Positions 32,379-34,575 of a stretch of DNA of 64,000 bases are shown one piece after another. Source of the stretch: Pimelobacter simplex (GTDB lineage Bacteria; Actinomycetota; Actinomycetes; Propionibacteriales; Nocardioidaceae); NCBI GenBank assembly GCA_016803235.1, contig JADCLI010000009.1:62001-126000 (forward strand). The letters are read 5' to 3'. The position numbers were made by a program, and so were the translations under genes. How positions within the stretch are numbered: position 1 is the first letter of the stretch; every line of letters begins with the position of its first letter. The notes below the pieces were generated by a model, which was not told the origin of the DNA, ran no database searches, and worked only from the letters and a program-made list of their open reading frames with translations.

Positions 32379-33110
32379 ATGTCGGACCAGGACCCCCAGG
32401 CGCACCTCAAGACCAACGCCGCGAAGATCAACGAGCTCAACGACACCGTCCGCTTCACCATGTGGTCGGTGTTCCGGCTCGAGCAGCCGCTCGGCGCCGA
32501 CGACGTGGTCCGCAAGAACGAGGCCGCCGAGGTCGAGGCGCTCCTCGCCGACCTCGCCGCCGAGGACGTCGTCGTCCGTGGTGTCTACGACGTCGCGGGG
32601 CTGCGTGCCGACGCCGACCTGATGATCTGGTGGCACGCCGCCGACAGCGACCGGCTCCAGGACGCCTACCACCGGCTGCGTCGTACCGCCTTCGGGGCAC
32701 GGCTCGCCCCCGTCTGGTCGCAGATGGCGCTGCACCGCCCGGCGGAGTTCAACCGCAGCCACCTGCCGGCGTTCCTGGCCAACGAGCGCGCCCACGCGTA
32801 CGCCGCGGTCTACCCCTTCGTCCGCTCCTACGAGTGGTACCTCCTCGAGGACGCCGAGCGCCGCCGGCTGCTCGCCGAGCACGGCCAGATGGCCCGCGGC
32901 TACCCCGACGTGCGGGCCAACACCGTCCCGAGCTTCGCGCTCGGCGACTACGAGTGGATCCTCGCGTTCGAGGCCGACGACCTGACCCGGATCGTCGACC
33001 TGATGCGCCACCTGCGCGGCTCGGAGACCCGCCGCCACGTCCGCGAGGAGGTGCCGTTCTACACCGGGCGGCGCATCGAGGTCGCCGACCTGCTCGCCAG
33101 GCTGCCCTGA
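32379..33110 (+). CDS. hemQ: Coproheme decarboxylase HemQ
   Basis: 243 residues, a chlorite dismutase-fold protein. It carries out oxidative decarboxylation of iron-coproporphyrin III to haem b, the last step of the coproporphyrin-dependent pathway. The catalytic Tyr lies in YPFVRSYEWYLL and the haem-ligand His in LLAEHGQMARGYP; the C-terminal FTxP-like region is replaced by VPFYTGRRI as usual for actinobacterial HemQ. It is leaderless (CAGAAT at 32367-32372, ATG at 32379). Confidence 0.93.
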   Translation: MSDQDPQAHLKTNAAKINELNDTVRFTMWSVFRLEQPLGADDVVRKNEAAEVEALLADLAAEDVVVRGVYDVAGLRADADLMIWWHAADSDRLQDAYHRLRRTAFGARLAPVWSQMALHRPAEFNRSHLPAFLANERAHAYAAVYPFVRSYEWYLLEDAERRRLLAEHGQMARGYPDVRANTVPSFALGDYEWILAFEADDLTRIVDLMRHLRGSETRRHVREEVPFYTGRRIEVADLLARLP

Positions 33111-33118
33111 GTCATCGT

Positions 33119-33154
33119 TTGCAAAGTCTATTGACTTAGTCCACTATGGAGGCA
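33119..33154 (+). promoter_or_regulatory. Promoter of the cysteine leader ORF and cysteine dioxygenase operon
   Basis: TTGCAA (33119-33124) and CACTAT (33142-33147) are separated by 17 bases, a good -35/-10 pair. Transcription starting seven bases after the -10 would begin exactly at the A of the leader ATG, 33154. The surrounding 40 bases are AT-rich compared with the genome. A GGAGG lies only one base from the ATG, too close to act as a ribosome site, which supports leaderless translation of the leader. Confidence 0.65.
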
Positions 33155-33222
33155 TGACCAGCCTCCTCCCAGTCCTGCGTGGCACCCTCCGGGCGTCCGG
33201 GCTGTGTTGTCGCTGCTGTTGA
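33154..33222 (+). CDS. Polycysteine leader peptide (cysteine-responsive attenuator)
   Basis: A 22-codon ORF beginning MTSLLPVLRG and ending SGLCCRCC before TGA. Four of its last five codons encode Cys. It lies 53 bases upstream of the cysteine dioxygenase start and is transcribed with it. Leaderless polycysteine ORFs upstream of sulfur-metabolism operons are known in mycobacteria, where ribosome progress through Cys codons tunes downstream expression. Here the same role is inferred: plentiful Cys-tRNA would allow completion and alter access to the downstream ribosome site. The ORF is too short for ordinary gene callers. Confidence 0.75.
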   Translation: MTSLLPVLRGTLRASGLCCRCC

Positions 33223-33233
33223 TCCGCGCCATC

Positions 33234-33251
33234 CGATCCAGCCGATCCAGC
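33234..33251 (+). repeat. Tandem 9-bp repeat in the leader-cysteine dioxygenase spacer
   Basis: CGATCCAGC occurs twice with no gap, between the polycysteine leader stop and the cysteine dioxygenase ribosome site (GGAGGAA). It may take part in alternative base pairing that exposes or hides that site; I cannot fold it here. Confidence 0.4.
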
Positions 33252-33275
33252 ACCGACCACTCCCGGAGGAACCCC

Positions 33276-33725
33276 ATGACCCAGCTCGCCGTCCTGCCCC
33301 TGCTCGAGGTGGTGCGCAACCACGCGGCCGACCCCGACCTGCTCCACCTCCTCGACCACGACCCGCACGAGCGCTCGTGGATCCGCCTGCTCGCCACCGA
33401 CGACTACGAGCTCTGGCTGATCTCGTGGCCCGCCGGTGCCGCCACCGACTGGCACGACCACGGCTCGTCCTCGGGTGCGTTCACCGTCCTCGAGGGCCGG
33501 CTCACCGAGCACACCTTCGACGGCGGGCTGCGGCTCGTCGACATCGGTCCCGGCGACGGCAAGGCGTTCGGTGCGGGCTACGCGCACGACGTCCGCAACG
33601 CCACCGACCGCCCGGCGCTCTCCCTGCACGCGTACTCGCCGCGGCTGCACACGATGACCCGGTTCAGGTTCCACGGCGACCGGCTGGAGGCGCTCGGCGT
33701 CGAGCGGGCGGGGGAGGGCTGGTGA
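33276..33725 (+). CDS. Cysteine dioxygenase, type I (cupin)
   Basis: 149 residues. Cupin motif 1 has the metal ligands His60 and His62 in [16 protein letters not shown], and His104 lies in GYAHDVRN (motif 2). The family oxidises the thiol of cysteine to cysteine sulfinate using Fe(II) and oxygen. The ATG at 33276 is chosen because GGAGGAA precedes it; an in-frame GTG further upstream lies within the leader ORF and has no ribosome site. GTGA overlap joins it to the rhodanese gene, and the upstream polycysteine ORF fits cysteine-dependent control. Confidence 0.9.
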
Positions 33726-34147
33726 GCGCCCTGGCCCCGGCGTCCGTCCGGTACGACGGCGTCGACGCCCTCCTCGCCGACGCCCGGTCCCGGCTCGACC
33801 GGATCAGTGCCCGCGCCGCCTTCCAGGAGCTGGTCGCCCTCGGCGCGCTGCTCGTCGACATCCGGCCTGCCGCCCAGCGGGCCCGGGAGGGCGAGGTGGC
33901 GCGCTGGCTGCCCGCGCTCGTGGTCGAGCGCAACGTGCTCGAGTGGCGCTTCGACCCGCGCAGCGACGCGCGGCTGCCCGAGGCGTCGTACGACCGCCGG
34001 GTGATCGTGCTGTGCCAGGAGGGCTACACCTCCTCGCTCGCCGCGGACGCGCTGCGCAGCATCGGCGTCGAGCGGGCCACCGACGTCATCGGTGGCTTCG
34101 CGGCCTGGCGCGAGGCCGGCATGCCGGTCAACGGGCTCGCTGCCTGA
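33722..34147 (+). CDS. Rhodanese-like sulfurtransferase
   Basis: 141 residues, a single rhodanese domain. The start of the domain is [16 protein letters not shown], and the catalytic Cys is in [18 protein letters not shown] near residue 96, followed by [14 protein letters not shown]. It transfers sulfane sulfur to cyanide or thiols, consistent with processing sulfur released from cysteine catabolism. GTG start overlaps the cysteine dioxygenase stop. Confidence 0.9.
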
Positions 34148-34170
34148 GGGCTGCTGAGTACGCTCGTCGT

Positions 34171-34575
34171 ATGGCATACGAGGTCGAGAAGACGGACGAG
34201 GAGTGGCGCGCCGAGCTGACTCCCGAGGAGTACCAGGTGCTCCGCCAGGCCGGCACCGAGCGGGCCTTCACCGGTGAGTACACCGACACCGAGACCAAGG
34301 GTGTCTACCGCTGCAAGGCTTGTCAGGCCAAGCTCTTCGAGTCCGACACGAAGTTCCACTCCGGCTGCGGCTGGCCGAGCTTCTACCAGCCGATCAGCGA
34401 CACGATCGAGTACCTCGAGGACACCTCGCACGGCATGAAGCGGGTCGAGGTGCGGTGCGCCAACTGCGGCTCGCACCTCGGTCACGTCTTCCCCGACGGC
34501 TACGGCACGCCGACCGGTGACCGGTACTGCATCAACTCGATCAGCCTGAGCCTGGAGCCGGCCGACGGCAGCTGA
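34171..34575 (+). CDS. msrB: Peptide-methionine (R)-S-oxide reductase
   Basis: 134 residues. Zinc ligands are Cys48/Cys51 (CKAC) and Cys96/Cys99 (CANC); the nucleophile is Cys120 in [10 protein letters not shown], and GCGWPSF is the substrate-binding motif. It repairs R-methionine sulfoxide in proteins using thioredoxin. It has its own leaderless promoter (TACGCT 34159-34164), although it follows the cysteine dioxygenase operon closely. Confidence 0.96.

Follow-up and report, generated by a model that had tools for sequence, protein, structure and literature searches.

Through the polycysteine attenuators of mycobacteria, an abundance of cysteine lowers expression. These attenuators have been reported as leaderless short ORFs that respond to cysteine (Canestrari et al. 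2020, doi 10.1111/mmi.14498), and a leader with clustered cysteine codons is described as ribosome-occupied in M. smegmatis in the available part of Shell et al. (2015, PMC4633059). Cysteine leaders were also predicted for the cys operons of Mycobacterium and Propionibacterium acnes and for cbs of Bifidobacterium longum (Seliverstov et al. 2005, PMC1262725), and the accessible portion of that study states that no conserved hairpin able to act as a terminator was found for the Mycobacterium leaders.

The window, a stretch of 64,000 nucleotides from Pimelobacter simplex, contains a cysteine-rich leader that stands first in a sulfur-metabolism operon, with a thiol dioxygenase of the CDO_I family and a rhodanese downstream. 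From its conservation and from folding calculations, this conserved 22-codon leader is probably a cysteine-tRNA-sensing translational attenuator of the dioxygenase-rhodanese operon. The locus is composed of the following features:

32379-33110: HemQ, neighbour of the leader locus.
33119-33124, plus strand: -35-like hexamer TTGCAA, from the sequence and from TTGNAA in 24 of 24 relatives.
33124-33137, plus strand: inverted repeat AAGTC-TATT-GACTT between -35 and -10, a candidate transcription-factor site from 24 promoters placed side by side.
33142-33147, plus strand: -10 hexamer CACTAT, 6 nt 5' of the leader ATG, from the sequence.
33154-33222, plus strand: 22-codon leader ORF MTSLLPVLRGTLRASGLCCRCC*, predicted to be leaderless, from the sequence and a 24-genome comparison.
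33205-33219, plus strand: leader codons 18-22, TGT TGT CGC TGC TGT (Cys Cys Arg Cys Cys).
33265-33269, plus strand: Shine-Dalgarno sequence GGAGG of the dioxygenase, from the sequence.
33276-33725, plus strand: thiol dioxygenase of the cysteine dioxygenase type I family, 149 aa (Pfam CDO_I PF05995, E 1.1e-17).
33722-34147, plus strand: rhodanese-like protein with a GTG start (Pfam PF00581, E 2.5e-7).
34171-34575: MsrB, downstream of the rhodanese.

The original prediction of a type I cysteine dioxygenase gene coupled to a rhodanese agrees with the profile matches and with the 4-nt overlap (GTGA) of the dioxygenase stop and the rhodanese start. The dioxygenase scores 64.5 bits against PF05995 (cut-off 23) and was found in 24 of 215 genomes of the genus (E ≤ 1e-60, identity 75-100%), all of which keep the GTGA overlap followed by a rhodanese relative. 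His60, His62, His104, His118 and Tyr120 are invariant across the 24 aligned proteins, and together with the profile these columns place the protein in the cysteine dioxygenase type I family; NCBIfam gave no match for it. L-cysteine is only a possible substrate, since the nearest solved chain, deposited as a cysteine dioxygenase, matches at no more than 46 bits, and among the literature matches listed no title dealt with the substrate of this enzyme. Further downstream, MsrB may be a leaderless gene in its own right, with TACGCT located 6 nt 5' of its ATG (34159-34171).

A separate leader precedes the dioxygenase in 21 of the 24 genomes, with a length of exactly 22 codons in 20 and of 26 codons in one (L013). 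The ORF of the original prediction proved correct in coordinates and translation, as did its 53-base spacing: the stop codon TGA lies at 33220-33222 and is followed after 53 nt by the dioxygenase ATG. Among the 21 leaders, this gap is 41-53 nt in 15 and 71-142 nt in six. A 3' cluster of cysteine codons, which had been proposed as a feature to look for in homologous loci, is conserved, 19 of 21 leaders having at least three cysteines in their six terminal codons. The endings are CCRCC in 15, CRRCC in two, and CCPCC, LCRCC, RCRGC (G150) and RCRRR (G002) in one each. Loss of these codons in close relatives was to have counted against the proposal, and it is limited to a minority, with two cysteine codons left in G150, one in G002 and none in three genomes where the leader is fused to the dioxygenase.

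Among 20 leaders, the mean pairwise DNA identity is 86% for codons 18-22 and 57% for codons 2-17. Since codons 18-22 are conserved down to the choice of synonymous cysteine codon, which is largely fixed, both the RNA and the peptide are considered to be under constraint there. In the 5.36-Mb genome, the codon pattern TGYTGYCGNTGYTGYTRA matches once, at this locus; a reversed-pattern control also matches once, thus rarity alone is no proof, and the leader is judged to be beyond chance from its conservation in 21 genomes. No family was identified for the 22-residue peptide in Pfam (to 0.001) or NCBIfam (to E 10), short queries being hard for such models. Rfam returned no match at E ≤ 1 for 32900-33500, and plasmid records held no match to the leader. 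An earlier pattern search matched 68 of 215 genomes, mostly in apparent coding repeats, and was discarded. Inside the leader is a small terminator-like hairpin (33188-33201) followed by the U-rich cysteine codons, where 0.1 would be expected by chance.

With respect to the promoter, the TTGCAA and CACTAT pair was rightly identified by the original prediction in both hexamers and their 17-nt spacer, and in all 24 genomes the ATG follows the -10 box at a distance of 6 or 7 nt. A generic sigma-70 scan called no promoter-like site here and the assignment consequently draws on conservation in the 24 genomes. In G014 (N. carbamazepini), G115 (N. stalactiti) and G025, the leader ATG reads in frame into the dioxygenase; the promoter is retained, and the cysteine codons, the stop and the hairpin described below are gone. 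A protein tree, with modest branch support, places G014 apart from G115 and G025, which implies at least two fusion events, each fusion being known from a single assembly. Indirectly, the fusions argue well for a functional start at the 5' ATG. From the -10 spacing and these three fusions, the leader is likely translated from the first base of the mRNA. In L022, a dioxygenase relative with 52% identity, the dioxygenase's own ATG occupies the leaderless position.

The cysteine codons and stop of the leader are complementary to a downstream GATCCAGCA arm. The predicted hairpin has a UU bulge made up of the last base of a cysteine codon and the first base of the stop, and its parts are:

33209-33224, plus strand: 5' arm GTCG-C-TGCTG-TT-GATC, extending over the stop codon.
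33235-33242, plus strand: first copy of the 3' arm, GATCCAGC, a lineage-specific duplicate (one copy in most relatives).
33244-33257, plus strand: 3' arm GATC-CAGCA-C-CGAC.

The tandem CGATCCAGC that the original prediction noted between the ORF and the ribosome site is exact and located as claimed (33234-33242 and 33243-33251), although its interpretation is modified: it is best described as a local duplication of the hairpin 3' arm and is found as an exact tandem in only one of 21 leaders. Several imperfect GGTCCAGC/GATCCAGC copies 3' of the leader in L084 (2024-2110) recall the tandem of the window, and L164 also has a repeated element, CCTGCTCCA.

A nine-pair core of the hairpin is present in 20 of 21 leaders; it arose in 0.15-7% of 2000 trials each with shuffled gaps and in 14 of 894 other leader windows. 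MAFFT misaligned the diverged hairpins and the arms were therefore anchored by hand. In the resulting alignment of 20 rows, which omits L010, pairing holds in 179 of 180 cells, and four of the nine pairs vary on both sides, these changes coming from three sequences and hand anchoring itself favouring pairing. The paired changes are GGCUG/CAGCC and GACU/AGUC in L079 and, in L014 and L013, UGUUG with CGACA and CGACG, respectively; among the 13 close rows no pair varies on both sides. Less biased checks are the shuffle test, a covariance model and the comparison with a second genus. The covariance model was built from the 13 close leaders and recovers all seven diverged leaders at 20-37 bits, with the middle helix dropped in L014 and with L079 (20.2 bits) not exceeding the score of the L002 reverse strand (20.4 bits). 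The three fused loci were unmatched at that place. The model also touches the cysteine ends of leaders of other types (L092, L020, L085, L031 and L091) at 14.6-23.5 bits. Testing the arms by duplex energy gave a weak result (mean z -0.98, p < 0.05 in five of 21), and RNAalifold gave only -3.3 for the 21 leaders. As the cysteine codons are reduced in G002 and G150, the hairpin is more constant than the codons themselves.

The sequence CCCGGAGG at the dioxygenase Shine-Dalgarno site can pair with CCTCCGGG of leader codons 11-14. Pairing of the site with leader nucleotides 1-33 or 28-51 was not above shuffles for the group (mean z -0.68 and -0.52). A general pairing with the leader start, which produced a three-way junction in several folds, was rejected (p < 0.05 in four of 21, mean z -0.68). 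In L011, L012, L013, L014, L015 and L084, inspection by eye revealed an extra strong GC hairpin between the cysteine hairpin and the ribosome site, with sequences that differ from one another.

Of 296 genomes of the class searched with covariance model R1, 32 were matched at E ≤ 0.05, including G000 and G042. One match, in G637 (family f22, genus g58), fell on the end of a leader ...RRSCCCCPSC* located before a dioxygenase. Ten others read by eye (L116-L125) were rejected: none was on such a leader and most resemble coding sequence. A pattern search then matched 104 of 150 genomes of genus g58, and control patterns matched in similar number, thus the pattern alone is uninformative. Fifteen loci were chosen by eye for their loop letters among the matches listed; 13 have a leader and a dioxygenase, and L170 and L171 have neither. 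With L126, which was found by the covariance model, a polycysteine leader of 30-32 codons precedes a dioxygenase relative (41-47% identity) in 14 of 16 fetched loci, and the leaders have cysteine-rich ends such as CSCCCPSC. The nine pairs form in all 14, and the UU bulge at the stop recurs. GATC/GATC is replaced by GAGC/GCTC, and the remaining helix is AGCTG/CAGCT in 12 and GGCTG/CAGCC in two. The search pattern had imposed six of the nine pairs fully and one letter of a seventh; the change between GAGC/GCUC and GAUC/GAUC and the outer change from A-U to G-C were not imposed. TTGACA and TGTCCT are found 5' of the ATG, TGTCCT mostly at 7 nt, so these leaders look leaderless as well. They are near relatives of one another, and their gaps reach 155 nt.

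A survey of a further 39 loci encoding dioxygenase relatives found an ORF resembling a cysteine leader in the 500 nt upstream at 11 of them on the strand of the gene, and at two on the opposite strand; L101, one of the 39, was read at the wrong place, since only 167 nt of its contig precede the match. Two tandem leaders precede the dioxygenase relative in L018, L021 and L023, one of the ...CCR(F/L)A* type (by eye in L021 and L023) and one containing ...HVDLLRTASDLCPW...; in L018 a ...CCRFA leader is followed by a second HVDLLRTASDLCPW leader that overlaps the dioxygenase start. Other types are TLCRCCRRPR (L031, L086), MLCRCCRRPR (L085), MRCRCCA and MRCCCCA (L091, L092), and HVDFVRVASALC (L109, L111). 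By eye and without a control, the cysteine codons pair downstream in nine of the folds of 11 such loci, and for the second leader of L018 and L021 they pair by eye into the ribosome site ...CACAGGAG. In L087 (reverse complement, 821-910, same genome), a leader MVTAATHAHLVVRRHVDFGRTRSMMCWPR* stands before a sulfite reductase ORF starting at 985. The sulfite reductase leader of this genome is cysteine-bearing (e.g. ...VVRRHVDFGRTRSMMCWPR*) and belongs to the class of RRHVD-type leaders with a single cysteine.

To model the effect of a ribosome on the leader, it was placed at positions along the leader and the cost of opening the dioxygenase initiation window (30 nt) was computed; this window, a 31-nt footprint and energies at 37 °C were assumed. 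Leaders within each genus are related and the results are not independent trials. Averaged over the 15 short-gap leaders (41-53 nt), the cost is 13.3 kcal/mol without a ribosome, 14.2-14.9 kcal/mol with the A site at codons 2-9, 8.5-9.1 kcal/mol at codons 14-19 and 10.7 kcal/mol at the stop. Since codons 14-17 are as low as the cysteine codons, the low-cost stretch includes the cysteine codons and is not confined to them. The drop on stalling is 4.6 kcal/mol compared to 1.0 kcal/mol in shuffles and is positive in 14 of the 15, L005 having none; taken singly, six of the 15 have an equally large drop in at most 5% of their 60 shuffles. The leaders with gaps of 71-142 nt present no stall effect as a group (0.33 versus 0.06 in shuffles, the control covering five of the six with L013 left out), and only L084 is clear. 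The g58 leaders, which were met after the folding model was made, have a drop of 7.2 kcal/mol versus 0.35 kcal/mol in shuffles. It is positive in 13 of 14, each with an equally large drop in at most 3% of 40 shuffles, and L126 shows no effect. With the ribosome at the stop, the g58 cost is mostly intermediate. In the first genus, the predicted switch is strong in Nocardioides daeguensis (L033/L003). The second-genus loci and their folding results slightly raised confidence in the attenuator reading and in the wider regulon idea given below.

From these elements, a mechanism may be proposed. A ribosome would start at the 5' AUG, as the three natural fusions suggest. With cysteine plentiful, it would pass Cys-Cys-Arg-Cys-Cys and leave at the UGA, the cysteine codons would fold onto the downstream GATCCAGCACCGAC arm, and the dioxygenase ribosome site would be held shut by the leader fold. 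If cysteine is scarce, the ribosome would stall on the first cysteine codons and cover the 5' arm, and the dioxygenase ribosome site would become easier to open. Because the modeled stalled ribosome removes the hairpin and eases opening of the site in the short-gap and g58 leaders, the dioxygenase is likely ON when cysteine is scarce. The original prediction transferred the mycobacterial type of control to this locus with expression rising with Cys-tRNA. Its leader, the likely leaderless start, the conserved terminal cysteine codons and the conserved operon are retained; the direction is not, since the folding model points the opposite way.

Raising a cysteine-degrading enzyme during cysteine scarcity would be odd physiology and counts against the attenuator. 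One reading of such a rise is that the dioxygenase frees sulfur from another thiol. A wider and more tentative idea is that the actinobacterial 'cysteine dioxygenases' form a cysteine-starvation regulon: in several lineages they would stand behind leaders in which a hairpin of cysteine codons and stop shuts the ribosome site, and they would release sulfur not from surplus cysteine but from different thiols.

The explanation that survives best beside the attenuator is coupled translation, whereby ribosomes that finish the leader at plentiful Cys-tRNA would reinitiate and raise the dioxygenase to burn surplus cysteine. A catabolic cysteine dioxygenase and the 41-53-nt gaps of 15 of 21 leaders suit this explanation, and ribosome delivery by short upstream ORFs is discussed in the available part of one report (PMC12548453). 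However, the hairpin persists across gaps as long as 142 nt (first genus) and 155 nt (g58), and in the means the site is opened further by a ribosome on the cysteine codons than by a ribosome at the stop, with L126 and L169 of g58 as exceptions; coupled translation is thus considered unlikely. Slightly less probable again is transcription attenuation, in which leader translation would govern Rho-dependent or U-tract-less termination before the dioxygenase. Rho was proposed for the mycobacterial cysteine leaders (PMC1262725, accessible portion), and the further strong GC hairpin seen by eye 5' of the ribosome site in the six long-gap leaders would be in keeping with it. Against this, the gap in the window is just 53 nt, and no intrinsic-terminator-like site was called within it (33223-33275), the single call being the one inside the leader.

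Control by the promoter alone, with a regulator on the -35/-10 repeat and the leader as a remnant, is improbable. Conservation of the spacer is strong, beyond what a promoter would need: all 24 genomes, the fused ones included, keep GACTTA or a close variant, and the AAGTC-TATT-GACTT pattern has one match in its own genome when up to three mismatches are allowed; it is a possible regulator site. Yet a remnant leaves the fixed leader length, the codon conservation and the paired arms unexplained, and promoter control and leader control may act together. In L007 the repeat is AACTC-TATT-GAGTT, changed on both sides. A role of the cysteine-rich peptide itself in trans, such as sensing metals or redox state, is hardly credible despite the CCRCC end of 15 of 21 leaders, given that codons 2-17 vary while synonymous codons 18-22 are largely fixed, that cysteine codons are lost in G002 and G150 and discarded in the three fusions, and that g58 combines a different peptide with the same hairpin.

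If the attenuator reading is true, Cys-tRNA sensing by leader peptides extends past cysteine synthesis to a gene filed as breakdown, and the real role of the dioxygenase becomes directly testable, with the fusions as natural deletion variants that provide ready controls. Sequence comparison shows that the leader is conserved together with its length, that the arms are complementary and change in pairs both inside each genus and from one genus to the other, and that the operon and the fusions exist; the leaderless start, the stalling and the direction of the response are what we infer.

The kind of element is already known from the cysteine leaders of mycobacteria; the dioxygenase target, the stop-codon hairpin and the fusions were not met in the literature searched, which did not extend to the full text of Canestrari et al. 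(2020), and no title or beginning of an abstract joined cysteine dioxygenase and a leader peptide on this subject. Compared to a classical trp-type attenuator, no intrinsic terminator was called here between leader and dioxygenase. The RRHVD-type leaders are similar as short cysteine-containing ORFs before sulfur genes, but have a different motif and no cysteine cluster. Among the genes behind mycobacterial leaders, cysA2 is of the rhodanese type. As far as the accessible text of Seliverstov et al. (PMC1262725) describes them, the 2005 leaders share runs of cysteine codons near the stop in Actinobacteria, but precede cys operons and cbs; a conserved RNA structure for cysteine leaders, as proposed here, is of a sort that this comparative study did not find in mycobacteria. 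The LEU element of leuA in Actinobacteria is alike in that its run of regulatory codons makes up one side of a stem close to the ribosome site that follows, but it has leucine codons and a pseudoknot, and its run pairs with the Shine-Dalgarno box (PMC1262725, same portion), whereas here the codons are for cysteine and the gene is a dioxygenase. The mycobacterial attenuators, in the available parts of PMC4633059 and doi 10.1111/mmi.14498, are closest, being short predicted-leaderless ORFs with 3' cysteine codons upstream of sulfur genes that include cysA2. The present leaders differ from them in belonging to the Nocardioides group and a second genus, in the thiol dioxygenase that they are predicted to control, in the hairpin of cysteine codons and stop with its paired changes, and in the natural in-frame fusions.
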